Shown in pieces: positions 1-13,200 of a DNA stretch of 64,000 bases. The position numbers were made by a program, and so were the translations under genes. Source of the stretch: Euphorbia lathyris. Lineage: Eukaryota; Streptophyta; Magnoliopsida; Malpighiales; Euphorbiaceae. Below the pieces are notes generated by a model. The model ran no database searches, was not told where the DNA came from, and saw nothing but the letters and a program-made list of their open reading frames with translations. The stretch spans positions 92,099,256 to 92,163,255 of the forward strand of contig NC_088911.1 in assembly GCF_963576675.1 (NCBI RefSeq), in the 5' to 3' direction. Numbering within the stretch: the stretch's first letter is position 1; each line of letters starts with the position of its first letter.

Positions 1-1040
1 ATGGTCATCTCCCCGAAAGAAAGGTGGAAAGTGTGGGTCGAGTCAACCCACCGCTCACATAAGGCGCGTAAGCCAAAGCGGTCGTATACCCCGTTGGTGC
101 GGGGCAACGCTGCAATAAAAGGCTCGAAGCCCAACTCGCGCACGCGGGCTCTCGCCGCGGCGCCCAGCCTAGCATACCACGAGTGAATCTCGGCGGTGGT
201 CCTAGAAATCTCAATAAACTAGAAAGAACAAGACAAGAAAATTTAAATACAGTTCCTAAAGCATGCAATCAATGAGGACGCGTTAAGACTAGGCATTCTT
301 TCATTATCTAACCTAGAGACATCTGGTCAATTAGGGCCAACTTTCTGTAAAAGTCTCTCCCTTAGGGCCGCTCATGTAAGGTTTAGTTAATTCTTTAATC
401 CACTCTCGTCCGCATTGACAAGGAGCATAGATTAAGTTTACTATTCATGTGCATTCGTTAAGTTTTCACTATTCACGTTTTTTTACTATTCACGTGCACT
501 ATTCACGTGCATCAGTTAAGTTTTCACTATTCACGTTTTACTATTCACGTGCACTATTCACGTGCATTAGTTAAGTTTTACTATTCACATGCATTAGTTA
601 AGTTTTCACTATTCACGTGCATTAGTTAAGTTTTTACTATTCACGTACACTATTCACATTTTTACTATTCACGTGCACTATTCACGTTTTTACTATCCAC
701 GTTGTTTTTACCATTAGCATGCATAAATTCGTAGTGTCGTTATTCACATGCATATAACGCGCATTCTCACACAGAAATAAACAAGTGTTACTTGTAAGTG
801 AAGAAATTCATGTTTTCTAGCTAAAGTCCTCTAAGGCAATCTAAAGGTTAGCATGCAAATCATGTTCGGATAGGAATGCTAAAGCCTAGAGTTTGAATCA
901 AATAAAAGTGAGAAATTACTTACCTCGTTGCAGCGTGTCCGGCTCAGATGCGTTGTAGGGTCGTGGAAGGGATCCACTCTATCTAGGTTTACGTAAACCT
1001 CGTCCATGCCTCTAGTGCCATCCCATTCATCTAAATCCAT
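1..1040 (-). CDS. Antisense plant mobile domain (PMD) gene carried by G1; exons 924-1040 and 1-218, continues off the left edge
   Basis: On the minus strand an ATG at 1040-1038 opens a 39-codon acidic exon ending GAG at 924, followed directly by a GTAAGT donor. A pyrimidine-rich stretch and a TTTCTAG acceptor (222-219) precede an open exon of 72 codons running to base 1 in the same phase. Exon 2 reads through LGFEPFIAALPR, then RWVDSTHTFHLSFGEMT, the hallmark start of the plant mobile domain (aminotransferase-like PMD), known from MAIN/MAIL1 and from some plant transposons. A TATA box lies about 80 bp upstream of the ATG. The 705-bp intron carries tandem repeats. In the MAIN family PMD proteins help silence transposons; what a transposon-borne copy does is unknown. 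The C-terminal part and any lesions there cannot be seen. Splicing is inferred from consensus sites and phase. Confidence 0.72.
432..703. repeat. Short tandem repeats built on CTATTCACGTG inside the PMD intron
   Basis: About 17 near-copies of an ACTATTCACGTG-type unit alternate with a CATTAGTTAAGTTTT-type spacer. Roughly six contain a perfect CACGTG palindrome (G-box core). The unit order is irregular, so it is a degenerate higher-order array and not a clean satellite. It lies entirely within the proposed intron. Confidence 0.8.
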
Positions 1041-1120
1041 CTCGAGAATAATCCAAAATCAAAGTCTAGAGAGAGAAAGAAGAGAGAGAAGGTGTGGGGT
1101 TGAAATGAAACCCCACCACC

Positions 1121-1127
1121 TTATATA
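1121..1127 (-). promoter_or_regulatory. TATA box of the antisense PMD gene
   Basis: Read on the minus strand the sequence is TACTATATAAGG, about 80 bp before the ATG. The stretch between them is rich in CT on that strand, as in many plant 5' leaders. Confidence 0.5.
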
Positions 1128-1472: not shown

Positions 1473-1853
1473 CCTTTAGCCATCTTACCTACGGTTCACG
1501 ACCGAGATAGCTTTTTAGCCATCTTACCTACGGTTCGCGACCGAGGTAGCTCTTTAGCCATCTTACCTACGATTCACGACCGAGGTAGCTTTTTAGCCAT
1601 CTTACCTACGGTTCACGACCGAGGTAGCTTTTTAGCCATCTTACCTACGGTTCACGACCGAGGTAGATTCTTAGCCATCTTACCTACGGTTCACGACCGA
1701 GGTAGATTTTTAGCCATCTTACCTACGGTTCACGACCGAGGTAGCTTTTTAGCCATCTTACCTACGGTTCACGACCGAGGTAGCTTTTTAGCCATCTTAC
1801 CTACGGTTCACGACCGAGGTAGCTTGTTAGCCATTCTTACCCATAGTCAACGT
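1473..1853. repeat. Tandem array of nine 39-bp units plus a decayed tenth, 3' UTR of G1
   Basis: Each unit contains TAGCCATCTTACCTACGG, then TTCACGACCGAGGTAGC and a T run. Copies start near 1473, 1512, 1551, 1590, 1629, 1668, 1707, 1746 and 1785 and differ at only a few positions. A tenth, strongly diverged copy follows 1823. Tandem arrays at this place, between the last gene and the 3' LTR, are a known trait of Tat elements and a proposed source of satellite DNA. Confidence 0.9.
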
Positions 1854-2078: not shown

Positions 2079-2429
2079 TGTAGACACCGAGTCGGAGGAC
2101 CTGTGACGAAAACCTGAAAACAAGACGGTTAAAGTGATTGATTCCGGAAGTTTCGAAAAAATAAAATAAATAGTTACAGTCGGTCGCTGCTGTGATGTGC
2201 GTAGTGCGAGTGCTTAGCGGCGGCCGACGCGTGTTCGACGACAGTCGGACACCCGCTCGATGACGCAAAGCGCGCGCTCGACGCTCGGCGGTCACAACGC
2301 GTGGACGCCTGACGGCGGAGCACGCGAGCCCGACGGTCACGACGCGTGAGCGTCCGACGGCGCGGAACGCGAGCTCGACGGCCGCGGGGGCATGCACGCC
2401 CGACGGTGCAAGACGCGCCCCAGCGGCCG

Positions 2430-2600
2430 TTGGGCGAGCGCCCAACCGCGTCGGGCGGACGCCCAACGACAGTTGGGCGCGCGCGCCCAACCTCGCGTTG
2501 GGCGATCGCCCAACAATCGTTGGGCGGCCGCCCAACAATGTTGGGCGGTAGCCCAACGCGAGGTTGGGCGACGCCCGATTTTACTCGGGCGTCGCCCATT
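2430..2600. repeat. Array of eight GGGCG..CGCCC palindromes upstream of the G1 LTR TATA box
   Basis: Eight inverted repeats of the form TTGGGCG-N-CGCCCAA follow one another every 20-25 bp, with differing centres (AG, GA, CGCG, AT, GGCC, GTA and others). The AT-centred and the GGCCG-type units are perfect 16-bp palindromes. The array ends about 20 bp before the TATA box. The second family copy has a comparable array at about 13620-13790. Confidence 0.85.
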
Positions 2601-2620
2601 GGTCCGGGGACCCGTTTGCC

Positions 2621-2629
2621 TATAAAAGG
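2621..2629 (+). promoter_or_regulatory. TATA box of the G1 LTR
   Basis: TATAAAAGG lies about 540 bp into the LTR, just after the palindrome array. The copy at 13592-13599 (minus sense, CTATATAAG) is at the matching place. Transcription would start about 30 bp further on, making R/U5 unusually long (about 2.3 kb). Confidence 0.7.
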
Positions 2630-4131
2630 CATGGATCCCCATACATTTAGATGGAGAGAATTTTGGAGCCTTTCTCACTCTAAACATTTTTAGAGAGAGA
2701 AAGTGATTTTTTTGAGAAAAATATTTTTTTTTCTCAAAAATTCCGAATTTCCCAAAGTTAAATTTTTACTAAAAAACATAAAAAACCGAAAAATCACGAC
2801 TCGTGGAATCAATCGGCTTCGACTGTCAGATACCGAACTTGAGGTATTATCCGAGGACTAGACTCGTTTTATTTTATTTAATTTATTTCTTTTCCTTTAT
2901 CTATTTTTATGTTATAACTTTATTTATTTATCACGTTTTATTTAATTTTTCGTATTTATTTAATTCCCGTCTCGTGTTGAATAAAATTCGGTTTTGCTTT
3001 AAAATAAAAAACCTCGTTTTGATATACCAATACGAACCATGATCCGATAAAAAGGTAGTTCGGGTGTTAGAAACGTTGTAATTATAAGTTTTAATTTAAA
3101 AGAATTTCCGAATAATGTTTTAAAATAAAAACGTTGTTTTAGGAATTTCCGTTATTGACTATGATCCATTTTTGGTAGTTCGGAAATCCAAAACGATTGA
3201 ATTAGACTTAATTTAAAGCTTTTGAATAAATCTGGAAACAATTGGAGTGCTGCTGTAATTTTCCGTTTCTGTCACTAATTGCTGTTTACTGACGGATTTT
3301 TCGTCGGTAAATCTGCCAAAACGTAAAAAATGTCATTTCAGTCCATTTTTATTAACTTTTAAGCTTTTAATCCTTAATATATATATGTATAGTTATGTAA
3401 TATATATTTTCAAACCATTTTAGATATTTAGTGTATATAATTATTTAGGATGTTTGTATATCATTTTTTATTCAATTTTTTAAGCATAGGTATATGTATA
3501 TATATTCTCCTTTTTTATTCATTTGAGTTATATTAGATTCTATTTTAAAAGGTTATTTATTTGGGCATTTTGGGAACTAATTAGTAAGTATTAGTATATG
3601 GATATATGTTATTTTTGGTATTTAAAACTATATTAGTTATGTATATATATAGTTTTGGGATATTTGGATTATGTTATTGTTTATTATATGAAACTATTTT
3701 GGATAAATGTTATTTTCTTATCTAATGAGATTTATTTACTATTTCCACCTCTTTAAAGTATAAATGTATTATATCTAGTATTTTCATATATGTATTATAT
3801 AGTTTCTTCTTATTAACTTTTATTTTCATATTCTCTTTTTGATTTGAATGTATATATATATGCTTAAATTATTTTCTTTATTCTTTTGGACCATTTATGG
3901 GTCCATGTTTCAAATGGGCTTTATTTGGGAGTGAATCTTGGTTTAAATGGGTTTATTATTGTAATTATAATAGGTAAAGAGTCCATTAAATAAAAGGAGA
4001 AAATAAATCACAAAAAGAGAGTTTTCAATTTAATTATTTAAACTAATGAATTTTTAGAGGTTCCTAATGTAAATAAATATAGTTGTTTTGTTAATATTTC
4101 AAATCGTTTTCAAAACACCACGTTTTAAAAC

Positions 4132-4390
4132 CTTAATCCGTTCTAAAGGCGGATTAAGCAACCTTGTAATTAAAATCATTTTCATTGTGAATAATCGAAT
4201 ATTTTGAACCATTTTCTCAAAAGAATTTGTACAAAATAAAATGGACTTGTATGTTTAACCACGTTTTCTTACTAAAGGTTTTTATCTCAAACGTTTTCAA
4301 ACACTTGAGTCGTTCCAACGGCGATTCGAGTAAACTTCACCAATCGGGGTTTTAAAACGCACCTAAATCATTCCAACGGCGATTAAGGTG
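4132..4390 (+). other. Three hairpins sharing a TTCCAACG loop in the G1 LTR leader
   Basis: Hairpin 1 (4132-4158) has perfect 9-bp arms CTTAATCCG/CGGATTAAG. Hairpin 2 (4303-4331) pairs CTTGAGTCG with CGATTCGAG. Hairpin 3 (4360-4390) pairs CACCTAAATC with GATTAAGGTG. The loops are TTCTAAAGG, TTCCAACGG and TTCCAACGG. All three exist in the G2 copy near 12047-12078, 11874-11905 and 11818-11850 with stems still paired. A further hairpin, TTTAC.GACGGA/TCGTCGGTAAA, lies at 3284-3311 and as a perfect 12-bp stem near 12882-12908. Confidence 0.65.
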
Positions 4391-4957
4391 CGAACCACGT
4401 AAATAAACTCGTTTTGGGGGGAAATAAGTTAGCATGGAATAAACACACAGCATGACATTTAAATAAAGTTGTAAATAAATCACTTCTTCCTTCCCCCTTC
4501 TCTGTGTATGTATAATATAAATGGGTGATTCTTTACTAATATGGCTTTCCAATAATATATGCTCAAAACGGTTTCTGAAAAAAGAAAGAAAAGGTCTCAA
4601 ATGAATTTTAAACTTAAAGAAGTATACGATTAGTCCGTTATCGCCTAACATGCTGAGTAGGAGGCCGGTGGTTCATAACCGGGCGATATCGGGGTGCCTA
4701 GTAGCCTTTCTCCGGAAAGGAGCTAGCCTTCTCGGCTCGTACCTAAGTTTCCCGAACCCACACCGGTCTCCCGCAAGGGATCGGTGTTCATTTTCCCATT
4801 CGTGGGTGGCGACTCTTCCATATCTCCGAGCTCCGGTCCTGCCGAGCAGCTTGATTCCACGATTGGTTGCTTTCGGCGCCAATCACCGCTTACGTCGCCA
4901 TGAGGCGTCCACCCCCCGGTCCGCCCGAGAGATTAGGCCGCGGCACCTCGTCTAACA

Positions 4958-6356
4958 CCTGGTAATTAGTTCCAAAGGGGGGGTTAGGAACTAATATAAC
5001 TTTTTCGCGTTTAATTAAGCTGACTGAAGGTTGTTTTGAGAGTTTATTAACTTAGCCTTTGGTCAGCTTGGTGAGATATGTTTCAGGACAGCTTTAGTCA
5101 GATGTTGACCAAAGTTGTTTTCTTGTGAGTTAAGAATTGACACTCTTGGAGGTCAGCTTCTAACTCAGCACCACTTATTTACTCAAGATCAGCTTAGGTA
5201 ATTTATATGCTGAGTAAATAAAGCAAACAACACATGCAATTATAAGAGAGAGTTTAGAGATTACTCAGTATCACTTATCCTGGTTCGGCCTCTCTGCCTA
5301 CGTCTAGTCCCCAGAGTCCTCCGGGCTTTTTGAATCCAATACTGAGCTCTTTAAAGGTAGAGCACAAACCGATTACAAGGCAGTTGAATATGCAAGAGTA
5401 CCTTCCTCTATTCGTCTACTCAACTCCTACTAAGTGCTACAACCCAGCACCTAGATTTCTCTACCACTGAAATGCTTACAACCAAGCACTCAGCTTAACA
5501 CTCTCAATATTCCTATTGATCACAAACTTGTTCTCTTTGAACTAAAGAACACTTTAGATGATTACAAGTCAATCTAGCATTTACACAGAGAATAGAAAAG
5601 TTGGTGTAAGATCTTTTTGTATTTGAGTGCTTTCAAGACTTTCTCTCTTTGTATTTTTCTCTTGATGCTTCAGTGATATTTCCAGTTTTTCGATTGTCCT
5701 TTTATAGAAGGAAATCTGTAGTTTTGATTCGTTTGAAATGTCTTGACCGTTAATGTCAAAACGGCTCTTTTGGGGAACAATTTCTGGATAGCTTCAGACT
5801 GCACCGCCATTCCTTTTCTCTGTTTTCTTCAGGCGTCAGGTTTGTCTTCTAGCGTCTGGTTTGTCTGTTTGCGTCAGTTGTCTTTTTCCAATAATCCATC
5901 GTCCCATGACTCTTGGAATTAGTCTTTTAGGTGTCTTCGAGGTTCCAATTATTGGTGCAGAAAATTGGCAGACTTCATCTTTTAGTGAACGGATCCTTCA
6001 TGATGTCCTGACTGTTACTCAGCTCCGTTTGTTCTTTTCAAATGTTCAACGTTCATGCTGAGTTCCTTCAAGGTCAGCTCCGTTCTGTTTAACCGCTCCA
6101 ATAGAAGTCTGCAACTTTAGTCAGCTTCGTTTTGCTTCTGAATTTTAACTCCACTCAGTTTCTATTCTGTCATGCTGAGTTCCGTTCTACTCAGCTTCGT
6201 TCGTGCTGACTTTTGTCCTGTTTTTACTTTATATATTTTTGCACTCAATATTTAACAAACATATTAGTACAATTAAATCAAAGCATCTAAATTTAATTGT
6301 CTCTTAATCATGGATGATTTTGTCAAATCAAAATCTTGTGGAAAGGTGTTTCAACA
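4958..6356 (-). repeat. 3' LTR of Copia A (last 8 bp displaced by G1)
   Basis: It matches 18214-19613 with about 17-20 differences that I noticed. It includes the GTTTCAACA end, the CCTTTTATA (minus-sense TATAAAAGG) promoter near 5697, and the poly-G tract near 4972. The outermost TGTTGGTC is missing at the left because G1 entered there. Confidence 0.85.
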
Positions 6357-6763: not shown

Positions 6764-9649
6764 CTAAGCTGAGGGTTCAGCTAGGGCAATTCCTTTGCCT
6801 TTCTCTTTGCTTCCACCGGCATTTCCTGCAGGCTGAGTTCCTCCTTTACTTGTCTCCCCCATTTTGCCATCATCGGGGTGGTAAAGGAAGGTCTTATTTC
6901 TGGCGGCAGAGGAGAGATAGTTAGAGTAGCGATGAAGCCTTTTTGTGCTTTCATCCAAACTGTCAATGACGGGAACGCTATCGTCCTGGACGTGCCTAGG
7001 AACCCGAAGGGAGCTGCTGATCATACTGAGGAGACATTCATGAGCTTTACTCAGGTAGGAGATTGAGCTGGTGACCTGACCATAAGATTGATGGAATAGT
7101 TTTAGCAGAGCAGAATCATAAAACATGCGATGGGCATTGTTGATCCGCATGGCCTTCATGATAGCTTGTGAAAAGCTCATGAGTTCTGTGTTGGATACAG
7201 GATCAACATCCATCTGGGCTCTATCAATGTTCAGGAGTCTGACTGCCTCACTTAATTGGTCAATAGTACACTGAGAAGAAGAAGATACTAAGTCACGTGT
7301 ACTTGTTAGCTCAGCATGAAGCTTGGTGAAGCATTGTTGAAGTTCGGTAGAGGTGACAAACTCAGTATCGCTGGGTGGACTGGATTTGGTTAGCTTAGCA
7401 TACAGCTTGGTGAAGCAATCTTGCAACTCAGCGGATGTGGCAGATTCAGTATGGGTAGTTGGTCTAGAGGGGGTCAGTTCCGCTGCTAGCTTAACAAAAC
7501 CGTTTTGAAGCTTAGTAGAAGTGACGTACCCTGGATTGGCTTCTGACAGTTGTTGAATTTTCCCTTCAAGAGAGTTCAGATGGGTGGCCATTGTAAGTAC
7601 TGATTCAGTCAGTTTGGCCATTTGCTCTTGGTTTGGTTGCTGAGTCTGGACTGTAGTGATGATGTTAACCAGATCTTTTAGGCCTCGAAGTTCATTCAGA
7701 AGCTGAGTAATACCTGTCAGGTGAGAGGGCTCAGTTTGAGTGGAGTGGTGACCATCAGCTTGAGTAGGATGAAAGTCTTGAAGCAAGGACTGAGCAGAAG
7801 CAATGACCCATCGGCCAGAGTCAGTAGCATTCAAGTATGCAAACTTGGCAGCATTGGACTCAGAGGCTGGTTCAAAATTTGATGGTGGTGGAGGAATTGG
7901 TTCTCTGCCAGATTGAGTATCTTGATTGGTACCTGGACTTGGATTGATTGGATTAGCTGAGTCATCAACATGTTGTGTTGAGGGTGGAACTTGATTTGAT
8001 AAGTTACTCTTCTCAGCTTGAAGAGGTGAAGTGGAGACAGGAGGTGTGTCACCTTGAGTATCTTGAGTTGGATTTGCAGGGTTTTTGGCTTGTTCCTCGT
8101 CCTGAGTAACAGAGGGTTGTTTTTCCACTAGATCTTCTGGTGAAGACTCAGTTTCATTTGAGAAGTACTGGAACTGGATTGTTGAGAGGTCAGTTTCTGG
8201 CTCGTCAATGGGAAAATCGTTCATGAGATCAAATTGCTTTTGCGCTTTCTTCTTTAATCTTCGCCGGGTCTGAGTTTTAGGTGGTGAATGGTCAGTTCGA
8301 AGACCTTCACTGGATTCAGTAGCAATTGTCTCCTCTTCTACAGGTTGCCCAACAGGGCTCTCAACAACGTTACTTTCTTTCTTTTGCTGCTCAGCATTGT
8401 CATTGGGGTATTCTTCCTCTTCAGTATTAACTTGTTGGTGCTCAACGTGTTGCTCATCTTTTTGGTCAATTCCATGACCTTCAGGTTGAGTAGAGGTTAG
8501 TGGGACAGCTTCAACTATTTTTAAAGAGTTTCCCTTTTTCTTTTTCTTTAAAGGGGTTTCTGGAGTTTCTTCGTTCTCATCCTCAGGCTCTTCTTGCCTC
8601 TTTCTTTTCTCATCATGCTCCTTAGCCTTGTCGGCTTTAGCTTTCTATCTTGATGAAAGCCTTACTTTCTTTGGGACATCATGAATGTCATTGGAGCAGG
8701 TTTCTACAACCTTCCTCTTCTTTCTCTTCTCAGGCTGAGCAGTTTCTGGTGACTCAGCACGGGCTTCAACCTCTTCTGCAGGCTCAGCTTCAGGCTCAAT
8801 TTCTTGTTGCACATATTCTTCATCTTCTTCAGCATCTCCAGCTCCTTCATATCCCTTCAAGGGTTGATTGTACAACATTCCATCCAGCAGAACTGCAGTA
8901 ATTTCACTTCCCAAGCTACTTGTTTCACTTTTCGTTTCAATCTGCTTGTCTTCAAGAATCTTTGTGATTAGAGATCCCAAACGGAGTTTCTTACCACTTC
9001 GTTGAAACGCACCAACTAGAAACACAGGAAGATTGAATGGAGTGTAGGTCAATATGTGCCAGATGAAGCACTGTTCGAAATTCGATGCGGATGAAGCTGA
9101 GCTGAGTTTGGGGAAGATAAAGTTGGTCAACATGAAGTGGACCATCTTTTGTTCTTTACCCATGCAGGTGCTGGGTATTTCCCCCTTATGATCTTTGGGT
9201 TTACAGAACCCCTTTAACTTATCAGATGTGGCTTTTGGTATTTTTTCCTTTATCGTTCTAAATTGAATTCCTTCGTCTGGTAACTCTAGCAGTGTGGCTA
9301 GATAAGCAGGGGTTATGATGATTTTCTGACCTTTCACAGTGGTTTCCAAATAATCAGAGTCATCTGCATCAACACTTAAATTCGAGTAAAATTCCCGTAC
9401 TAACCTGGGGTAAGCTGTTCCTGAGAGGGAGAAGAGACCTTTCCATTTGTTTTTCTTGATCCATTCACAGAATGGTTTCTCAGATGAGACGAAACTTGGA
9501 GAAAACCATCGGCACTTTAAAACCTCCAGATTATTGACCTTTGAGTGTACCTTGATCATTGTCCTTTTGATTTCCGTTGAAGGACCAGCGTGGTCAGTGG
9601 ATTTGTCTGTGGTTTGAGTTTTAGGAGATTTGTTTTTGCCGGAAGCCAT
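6764..9649 (-). pseudogene. ORF3 of Copia A (962 codons, one in-frame stop)
   Basis: One reading frame runs from the ATG at 9649 to a stop at 6764, broken only by TAG at 8647-8645. The N-terminal 220 or so residues (RWFSPSF, CEWI, YPRLVREFYSNL, IIITPAYLATLLELP, FEQCFIWHILTY) resemble the 'putative plant transposon protein' domain also seen in annotated envelope-like genes. A basic motif (KRKKRKVVETC) follows, then a long acidic, Pro/Gln-rich stretch, a probable coiled coil, and a threefold 28-residue repeat (7525-7274). I see neither signal peptide nor membrane segment. The copy C counterpart keeps the same domain order and frame. It sits where the env-like gene of SIRE1-type elements sits, but its role is unknown. 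Confidence 0.75.
7274..7525 (-). repeat. Three tandem 84-bp coding repeats in ORF3 of A
   Basis: Three 28-residue units each begin (V/A)TS(T/A)(E/K)LQ..F.KL.A.L and are separated by Ser/Pro/Thr-rich linkers. Copy C has only one unit (about 38104-38187), so the repeat number differs inside the family. Confidence 0.8.
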
Positions 9650-10246: not shown

Positions 10247-13200
10247 TTAGAGTGGATTTGACATACCAATTGCTTCCCTTAGTGTGTTGAATTGTTCTCG
10301 TGCTAAGGGCTTTGTGAAGATATCTGCAAGCTGGTCATTTGTTGGCATGTAGGTCAGCTTGATCTCATCTTTTAGTACATGGTCTCTGATGAAGTGATGC
10401 CTTATGCTAACATGCTTCATCCTGCTGTGTTGGACTAGATTTTTAGATAGATAAATGGCACTTTTATTGTCGCATTTGATCTCTATTGTCTTTGTTTTGA
10501 CTCCGTAATCCTCAAGCTGTTGCTTTATCCATAGGACTTGTGCAACACAGCTTCCACAGCCACGTACTCAGCTTCAGTTGTAGACAGAGCTACGGATGAT
10601 TGCTTCTTACTGAACCACGATACTAGACAGATTCCGAGGAAATGACATCCTCCCGAAGTACTTTTTCGTTCTAGCTTATCTCGTCCGTAGTCAGCATCAG
10701 TATATCCAATGAGTGTGAAATCATTTGAGGTTGGATACCATAGACCTGCATCAACTGAGCTTTGCAAGTATCTAAAAATTCTTTTTACAGCAGTTAGATG
10801 AGATTCCCTGGGGTCAGCTTGATATCTAGCACAATAGCATACTGAGTATTGAATATCTGGTCTACTAGCAGTGAGATAGAGTAATGAACCTATCATACCT
10901 CGATAGAGTTTACTATCAACTGACTTACTCTTTTCATCCTTCCATAGGACAGTATCAGTACCCATGGGAGTTGATATTGGTTTGCAATCTACCATGCTGA
11001 ATTTCTTTAACATTTCCTTGGTGTACTTAGACTGACTTATAAAGATGCCATTCTTTTCTTGCTTGATTTGAAGTCCAAGGAAGAAGTTGAGTTCACCCAT
11101 CATGGACATTTCGAACTCAGTTTGCATCTGTTGGCTAAATTCTTTGCACAAGGATTCGTCAGTAGCACCAAAAATTATATCATCAACATATATCTGCGCA
11201 AGTAGGGTATGTTTACCCTTTTTCTTAATAAACAAGGTTGTGTCAGCTGTTAGACGAGGTGCCGCAGCCTAATCTCCCGGGCGGACCGGGGGGTGGACAA
11301 CCTCATGGCGACGTAAGCGGTGATTGGCGTCTAAAGCAACCAATCGCGGAATCAAGCTGCTCGGCAGGACCGGAGCTCGGAGATATGGAAGAGTCGCCAC
11401 CCACGAATGGGAAAATGAACACCGATCCCTTGCGGGAGACCGGTGTGGGTTCGGAAAACTTAGGTACGAGCCGAGAAGGCTAGCTCCTTTCCGGAGAAAG
11501 GCTACTAGGCACCCCGACATCGCCCGGTTATGAACCACCGGCCTCCTACTCAGCATGTTAGGCGATAACGGACTAATCGTATACTTCTTTAAGTTTAAAA
11601 TTCATTTGAAACCCTTTTCTTTCTCTTTTTAGAAACCGTTTTGAGCATATGATATTGAAAAGCCACATCAGTAAAGAATCACCCATTTATGTTTATACAT
11701 ACACAGAGAGGGGGAAGAAAGAAGTGATTTATTTACAACCGTATTAAACGTTATGTTGTGTGTTTATTCTACTCTAACTTATTTCCCCAAAGCGGATTTA
11801 TTTACATGGTTCGCACCTTAATCGCCGTTGGAACGATTAGGGTGCGTTTTAAAACCCCGTTTGATGAAGTTTACCCGAATCGCCGTTGGAACGACTCGAG
11901 TATTTGAAAACGTTTGAGATGAAAACCTTTTAATGAGAAAACATGGTTAAACATACAAGTCAATTTTATTTTGTACAAATTCTTTAAGAAAATGATTCAA
12001 AAATTCTATTATTCATGAAGAAAACGATTTTATTTACAATGTTCGCTTAATCCGTCGTTGGAACGGACTAAGGTTTTAAGAAACGATTTGAAATGTTAAC
12101 AAGAATGACTCTATTTATTTACATTAGAAATCTAAAAAACTCATTAATTTAAATAGTTGAATTGAAAACTCTCTTTTTGTGATTTATTTTCCCCTTTTTA
12201 TTTAATGTACTCTTTACCCATTGTAATTACAATAATAACCACATTTAAGCCCAAAATTAATTTTTCAAAGTGAATCCCATTAGAAACATGGACTCATAAA
12301 TGGCCAAAAGAGATAAAGAAAATAATATAGATATATATTTACACATTTTAGCCCAAAAGACATAAAATAAGAGTAAAAGAAAGTATACTATCTAATACAT
12401 ATATAAGAAAGAGTAATGAAAATAACATATTTATACTTTAAATATATGAAAATAGTAGATGAAATTCAAAAATAAGAAAATAGCATTTATCACTCAAAAT
12501 AACTCTATTTATCAATAATTAACATAACCCAAATATACTCCGAAACTATATATATATACATAACAAATATAATCTTAATGTCAAAAAGACTATATGTTTA
12601 TCCCCTAATATCTACTAATTGTCTCACAAAATACCCAAGTAAATAACGTTTAAAATAGATTTTAATGTGACTTAAACAAATAATAATAAAAAAAGAGAAA
12701 ATAATACATACATATATAAAAATAAAATGGAACACCACTCTTCTAAAATAATTATATATGTTAAAATTCTAAAACAATTTGAAAATCATATATTACATAA
12801 TTATATATATATATACTAAGGATTAAAAGTCTAAAAGTTAAGAAAAGGGGACCGAAATGGCATTTTTTACATTTTGGCAGATTTACCGACGGAAAATCCG
12901 TCGGTAAACAGCCTTTAGTGACAGAATTGGCAAATTACAGCAGCGCTCCAACATTTTCCAGATTTGTTCAAAAGCATTAAATTAAATCTAATTCAATCGT
13001 TTTGGACTTCCGAACTACCAAAGATGGATCATAGTCGAAAACGGAAGTTCCTAAAACGATGTTTTTGTTTTAAAACGTTATTTGGAAACCTCTTTCAAAT
13101 AAAAAAACTTATAATTACAACATTTTCGATACCCGAACTACCTTTTTATCGGATCACGGTTCGTATTGGGATATCCAAAACGAGGTTTTTATTTTAAAAT

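Follow-up and report, generated by a model that had tools for sequence, protein, structure and literature searches.

Plant mobile domain (PMD) genes were reportedly described by Steinbauerova et al. in 2011 as extra open reading frames (ORFs) of Tat/Ogre elements, i.e. in Ty3/Gypsy elements, as is the gene reported here. According to the accessible parts of later work, PMD occurs in 57% of Ogre elements (Neumann et al. 2019, PMC6317226; Ikeda et al. 2017, PMC5418596), the PMD-A1/A2 clades are confined to Gypsy elements (PMC5418596), and the direction of the Gypsy/host PMD origin is called fully open by Ikeda et al. (PMC5418596). The closest antisense systems are the aORFs of Grande (gene23) and Retand (TRP28), which share with our gene a position between pol and the 3' LTR, their orientation and nearby tandem arrays (PMC7264820; Vicient 2025, PMC11963269; as far as their available text goes). 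The Grande antisense gene has its own internal promoter and a nuclear protein product (same sources). Both differ from our gene in their protein domain, which in Retand TRP28 is PF04195. Earlier publications therefore already cover PMDs carried by Tat/Ogre elements, the antisense ORFs that lie past pol and ahead of the 3' LTR, the internal promoter of Grande and the tandem arrays of this region. Introns are a different matter. The available portions of PMC6317226 and PMC5418596 make no mention of an intron in, or antisense splicing of, a PMD ORF (the intron passage of PMC6317226 concerns Ogre gag-pol), and the word 'intron' is absent from PMC5418596 and, as far as available, from the body of PMC7264820 and PMC11963269; PMC7264820, a review, names spliced antisense transcripts as worth looking for. 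The search of Neumann et al. was for uninterrupted ORFs of at least 250 codons (PMC6317226, available part), whereas every exon of the gene described here is shorter.

The window, i.e. the whole stretch of 64,000 nucleotides that was analysed, corresponds to C2:92099256-92163255 of the 1.02 Gb genome of Euphorbia lathyris. It opens inside a retrotransposon, so the left flank was fetched as well (L009 and L010). The retrotransposon is complete and measures 19,708 bp including both LTRs, which are 98.4% identical (5' versus 3', 2230 aligned columns, using the part of the 5' LTR that lies within L009). Its boundaries and the array next to its 3' LTR are as follows, with positions given in the window unless C2 or L010 is named.

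C2:92084505, start of the 5' LTR, placed by comparison of the LTR ends
1475..1841, no strand, 39-nt tandem array of 9.4 units, separating the antisense gene from the 3' LTR
2079..4957, plus strand, 3' LTR, placed by LTR comparison
4958..4962, plus strand, 5-bp target site duplication CCTGG, with its second copy immediately before the 5' LTR

Pfam matches on the sense strand run from two gag-matching ORFs (the first at E = 2.7e-4, under the Pfam cut-off) through reverse transcriptase (RT) and RNase H to an additional RNase H (RVT_3) and integrase. The RVT_3 match occupies residues 56-173 of ORF L010:1658-3535, ahead of Integrase_H2C2 and rve, and RT with its own RNase H sits one ORF before. The same order, with an additional RNase H between RT/RH and integrase, is reported for Ogre and Retand in the available text of PMC6317226. 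With the LTR pair, the 5-bp duplication and the additional RNase H all present, the element is a Tat/Ogre-type LTR retrotransposon. Within L009:4151-6904 both consecutive sense ORFs match Retrotrans_gag, the second with two matched stretches, and the element may contain the gag domain more than once.

Between pol and the 3' LTR, on the strand opposite gag-pol, lies a gene of six exons and 665 codons, which has the placement of an antisense aORF-3R (opposite strand, pol to 3' LTR). The first-pass annotation had read on the minus strand a TATA box, an ATG, a short exon, a GTAAGT donor, a 705-nt intron, a pyrimidine-rich acceptor and a second exon, all of which lie where it had put them. It had also located the gene between a then unseen pol and the 3' LTR of a Tat-type element, as the left flank bears out, and extension leftward, which it had proposed as a check for further PMD exons, yielded more PMD sequence and four more exons. 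The parts of the gene are listed below in the order of transcription, with negative window numbers counting leftward from the window.

1121..1127, minus strand, TATA box TATATAA, 87 nt before the ATG, present in 30/30 copies
924..1040, minus strand, exon 1 (117 nt, 39 codons), ATG at 1040-1038, with the ATG in 30/30 copies and no indel
219..923, minus strand, intron 1 (705 nt, phase 0), GTAAGT...TTTCTAG, with GT in 30/30 and AG in 30/30 copies
432..703, no strand, tandem array in intron 1 with units of about 28 and 55 nt and CACGTG palindromes
218 to window -432, minus strand, exon 2 (651 nt), PMD by PF10536 match, its start lying in the window at 1..218
window -510..-674 (L010 5490-5326), minus strand, exon 3 (165 nt), from the gene model
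window -743..-1138 (L010 5257-4862), minus strand, exon 4 (396 nt), from the gene model
window -1213..-1563 (L010 4787-4437), minus strand, exon 5 (351 nt), from the gene model
window -1677..-1994 (L010 4323-4006), minus strand, exon 6 (318 nt), from the gene model
L010 4008-4006, minus strand, stop codon, some 2 kb beyond the window's left edge

In this spliced model each of the six exons is a multiple of three and each of the five introns is in phase 0. Introns 2-5 measure 77, 68, 74 and 113 nt, none of them a multiple of three, and intron 1 is one. The window copy contains a single in-frame stop, in exon 4. Intron 1 varies between 653 and 841 nt among 30 copies of the gene, and the CACGTG (G-box-like) palindromes of its array number 2-8 per copy in 30/30 of them; positioned just 3' of the presumed transcription start, this array could act as an intronic enhancer. 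The TATA box lies inside the internal region of the element. A spliced antisense gene, HBZ, is carried by HTLV. HBZ is described as antisense in the available part of PMC11963269 and parallels our gene as a regulatory gene opposite gag-pol in a retroelement, a role that is putative here; HTLV has its antisense promoter within the 3' LTR (PMC7264820, available part), whereas our TATA box is internal, 952 bp from the 3' LTR.

PMD motifs had been claimed for the in-phase second exon, and its open frame matches PF10536 with E = 2.9e-21 (76.5 bits, against a gathering cut-off of 34.9); the frames of exons 4, 5 and 6, searched singly, gave no PMD match. The NCBI protein P0011 matches the same profile with 89 bits over residues 130-353. 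PF10536 was the only profile that P0011 matched at E <= 1, and Transposase_28 (PF04195), the Retand TRP28 domain, was absent from that search. An AlphaFold model of P0011, built from a 34-row alignment, has a mean pLDDT of 57.4 and is confident mainly at the PMD (about residues 81-310); the middle is poorly predicted, and a long C-terminal helix is predicted with moderate confidence. Foldseek comparison of this model with the PDB returned 31 matches up to E = 10 and 0 at E <= 0.001, phmmer against PDB chains gave 0 matches up to E = 1, and an NCBIfam search gave no meaningful match.

The gene model was compared with NCBI proteins that bear the name Euphorbia lathyris, as a weak proxy for transcript evidence. 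All five junctions, that between exons 1 and 2 included, are present in P0011, and P0003, P0004 and P0006 have junctions 2/3, 3/4, 4/5 and 5/6 as in our model. P0002 agrees at 2/3, 4/5 and 5/6 and differs in its 3/4 join, and P0008 agrees at 3/4, 4/5 and 5/6. Disagreement is found in P0001 at 2/3, in P0012, which has another 2/3 border, in P0005, which terminates shortly past exon 2, and in P0013, where exon 3 directly follows exon 1. Numbered NCBI isoforms (X2, X6, X7) usually imply transcript support in the NCBI pipeline. In P0011, P0012 and P0013 an extra in-frame stretch precedes the ATG, and in P0011 the start of this stretch resembles, by eye, the sequence upstream of the TATA box. Four of the proteins (P0007, P0009, P0012 and P0013) fuse PMD exons to gag-like or copia-like sequences, with a gag-like part joined to exon 3 in P0007 and a copia-like part joined to exon 4 in P0009. 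These fusions are either annotation artefacts or read-through transcripts spliced into the exons of the antisense gene.

Conservation was assessed in 30 copies, i.e. the window copy and L012-L040, which are the best 30 of 44 matches (40 scored candidates, 2412 first-look candidates); as the copies most similar to the window were chosen, intact ones may be over-represented. Over the five introns, the donor GT is kept in 147/150 cases and the acceptor AG in 148/150, and the terminal TAG is present in 29/30 copies, alongside TATATAA and ATG in all 30. What is conserved is the TATA box of a putative promoter of the gene's own; the NCBI model P0011 starts further upstream. Indels were counted as gaps against the window copy, and such counts vary with the alignment. 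Those found in at least two copies number 0 in the 1998 nt of exon, whereas the introns hold 27 frame-breaking and 8 in-frame ones (frame-breaking, exons versus introns, Fisher p = 2.0e-13); without the repeat-rich intron 1 the same test compares 0 in 1998 nt with 7 in 332 nt (p = 1.1e-6). Single-copy frame-breaking indels do occur in exons, 9 in total. Of 10 distinct indels that fall within the 217 nt preceding the TATA box, 9 are frame-breaking, so this stretch does not look coding. Individual copies are often damaged: 18/30 have an in-frame stop and 12/30 have none, 7/30 have a frameshifted exon, and 8/30 have neither defect. The strand of pol is opposite to that of the PMD gene in 30/30 copies and in both subfamily loci checked. 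The splice sites of the antisense PMD gene are under selection within the family. Together, the conserved splice dinucleotides, TATA box and ATG, the absence of shared frame-breaking indels from the exons and the selection on the frame (below) confirm that the antisense gene is an observation well beyond chance.

To place the gene among PMD proteins, we compared its introns with those of the plant's own genes. Two host loci (L046 and L047) match the Prunus protein P0050, which we take to be a genic PMD-C protein, with 71 and 74% over the main exon. The borders in these host genes, all in phase 0, are IWDGQ/ERG (the slash marks the intron; the donor side is visible in L047 only), GCLTLLQ/CWSYF, and LDSLEPCD/VDWVPY or LDSLQPSD/VEWLPY. 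Intron positions were measured against the C1 host gene in 25 realignments with random sets of other PMDs. Element intron 2 (GGYTFALL/VWAYER) coincides with the second host border in position and phase in 25/25 realignments. Element intron 3 (IDSLTLRQ/IKFRW) matches the third host border in phase in 25/25 and lies within two residues of it, being exact in 9/25, off by one in 1/25 and off by two in 15/25. Intron 1 is unreliable in the alignment and ranges from -9 to +11 residues relative to the host border. The host PMD-C (MAIN/MAIL) genes therefore resemble the element gene in their PMD, their phase-0 introns, the intron 2 site and the approximate intron 3 site, whereas their proteins are very diverged and fall into a separate tree group, and the C-terminal part with the predicted long helix is a feature of the element gene. 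In a 38-row tree, the bootstrap of which had not fully settled, eight element PMDs form one group (100/100) that stands alone on a branch of 2.71 changes per site, and both host genes cluster with the Prunus protein (99/96). A first tree (53 of 54 rows) gave the same separation, with a branch of 2.54. The tree sequences came from searches listing 10 proteins plus the best 120 of 240, and closer relatives in other plants may exist. This separation implies that the intron common to both genes is old and that the element PMD gene is no recent host copy; because the proteins are very diverged, any exchange would be ancient.

The intron match could instead reflect coincidence or misalignment, the introns having been gained separately and providing no evidence of common descent. 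In favour of this, the proteins are extremely diverged, the match of intron 3 is of limited exactness and intron 1 wanders, and two other repetitive PMD families in the genome (L048-L055) read through the intron-2 site without interruption, which indicates that introns come and go in the PMD family. We nevertheless regard coincidence as unlikely, as every one of the realignments returned intron 2 at the same position and phase, and intron 3 in the same phase and within two residues. The first-pass annotation had spoken of a captured gene; the common intron position is compatible with capture, with the reservations that any capture was ancient and that transfer in the reverse direction fits equally well. 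A recently captured host gene was considered and rejected, given the branch of 2.71 and the grouping of the host genes with the Prunus protein. It is possible, and we propose it tentatively, that the element PMD gene and the host MAIN/MAIL-type regulators are two branches of one intron-bearing gene that was exchanged between host and element with its introns in place, perhaps by domestication from the element, the antisense orientation having preserved the introns. A sense-oriented Gypsy PMD was sought in the same genome as a contrast, by sampling the two other repetitive PMD families (L048-L051). The one member of each that was examined adjoins MULE-like transposase ORFs (by eye, from translations), so these families supplied no such contrast; one of these MULE-associated families has 40 near-identical scored copies (95-100%).

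Selection on the encoded protein was examined in the same 30 copies. The first-pass annotation had named dN/dS across family copies as a check, and the values are far below 1: the pooled pairwise dN/dS is 0.263 (95% CI 0.217-0.324), and comparisons with other subfamilies give 0.093-0.127. For exons 1-6 dN/dS is 0.128 (CI 0.054-0.302), 0.224, 0.340, 0.376, 0.173 and 0.516, respectively. The ratio of nonsynonymous to synonymous variants is 233:131 for private variants, 81:71 for those in 2-4 copies and 18:50 for those in at least 5 copies (common versus private, p = 1.5e-8). By exon, common variants number 1:4, 4:16, 4:5, 4:3, 3:18 and 2:4 in exons 1-6; exons 2 and 5, which are clearly depleted where exon 4 is not, supply most of the signal. 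As controls, common variants show no depletion in the flanks or when these exons are read in frames +1 and +2. Pseudo-codons in the introns drop partly in one frame (common 21:22 versus private 104:51) and less in another (28:19 versus 122:39), so base composition could account for some of the signal in the exons. The same 30 copies give a dN/dS of 0.131 for the integrase end of pol, with common variants at 4:31.

A protein search with P0004 (327 matches, 78 scored candidates, 6315 first-look candidates) extended the comparison to loci of other subfamilies, and the exon-by-exon borders recur among the matches listed. In three such loci (L043-L045) in-frame matches to exons 2-6 reach from one splice site to the next: introns 2-5 all have GT and AG, exon 2 is preceded by an acceptor, and exon 6 is followed by TAG in each locus. 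The exon lengths in these loci were read off alignments with protein sequences, which can yield nothing but multiples of three. Exons 2-6 contain one in-frame stop in L043, none in L044 and two in L045. Against the window copy, dN/dS is 0.127, 0.093 and 0.100 for L043, L044 and L045 (dS 1.51, 0.65 and 0.63, respectively). L043 gives 0.138 with L044 and 0.148 with L045, and L044 versus L045 gives 0.452 at a dS of 0.06. Selection has maintained the reading frame, the splice sites and the place of the stop codon within the family and, as regards exons 2-6, in the three loci of other subfamilies as well.

These data bear on three further explanations. In the first, the antisense RNA and not the protein would matter, pairing with the genomic RNA and limiting the element via small RNAs, with the coding frame secondary. 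The anatomy of the gene predicts antisense transcription against the element's own RNA, and such an effect was raised for antisense ORFs generally by Vicient and Casacuberta 2020 (PMC7264820, available part), but selection acts on the amino acids both within the family and between subfamilies, and the exons contain no common frame-breaking indel, which makes this explanation very unlikely. It is less credible still that the gene has lost its function and travels with the element as a dead relic: the in-frame stops in 18 of the 30 copies, the window copy among them, would suit a relic, yet nonsense variants are rare in frequency (13 private, 4 in 2-4 copies and 0 in at least 5 copies), and the low dN/dS between subfamilies persists at dS of 0.63-1.51, which together contradict it. 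Constraint imposed by a sense-strand protein that uses the same third codon positions can be set aside, as the element-sense frame with those positions is also low (common variants 25:47) but the antisense frame fits better, each sense frame contains 18-26 stops over these exons in the window copy, and the PMD match is antisense.

We conclude that the antisense gene is very probably an accessory gene of this Tat/Ogre element, with its own TATA box and a spliced PMD protein that aids the element, descended from an ancient intron-bearing PMD gene. The founding gene, from the host or from an older element, would have joined long ago as intron-containing DNA. RNA polymerase II presumably transcribes the gene from its own promoter, and the transcript would be spliced in the plant to give a protein of benefit to the element. 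The sense genomic RNA carries the reverse complement of the gene, in which the introns read CT...AC; by established rules of splicing they remain uncut there, survive reverse transcription and are handed on to new copies. Since the sense RNA has no splice signals for the antisense introns, orientation alone explains their survival, and the paradox that had been seen in an intron-bearing gene within a retroelement does not arise. By analogy with Grande gene23 (PMC7264820) and MAIN/MAIL1 (PMC5418596), the product is most likely a nuclear regulatory protein that would act on the element's own transcription or chromatin. One version of this role, countering MAIN/MAIL-type silencing, we hold to be doubtful; anti-silencing use was raised for MULE-borne PMDs by Ikeda et al. 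(PMC5418596, available part), and the great divergence from the host PMD genes does not favour simple mimicry.

As the locus shows, a plant retrotransposon can carry, as an antisense accessory gene, an ordinary gene of several exons in which selection maintains both the splice sites and the protein. Surveys of long uninterrupted ORFs, with minimum lengths of 250 codons in PMC6317226 and 600 bp in PMC11963269 (according to their available text), catch such genes partly or not at all. The gene also provides a concrete route by which introns survive retrotransposition, and its intron positions offer a test of direction, i.e. of whether the PMDs of Gypsy elements derive from host genes or the silencing genes of the host from Gypsy PMDs. 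What is new here is modest: the multi-intron structure, its selection and the host-matching intron, none of which was found in the literature covered by a limited search of partly available texts.

Two further observations concern the surroundings of the element. On the minus strand, a Transposase_32 (PF20167) ORF lies downstream of a Ty1/copia-type reverse transcriptase ORF (window 8645-9649 and 10525-11235), and the former may be an additional sense ORF belonging to a copia element. Beyond this pair, the minus-strand ORF 11269-11556 is nearly identical to the plus-strand ORF 4650-4955 near the end of the 3' LTR, which suggests a nearby inverted partial LTR of the same family as the element's 3' LTR.
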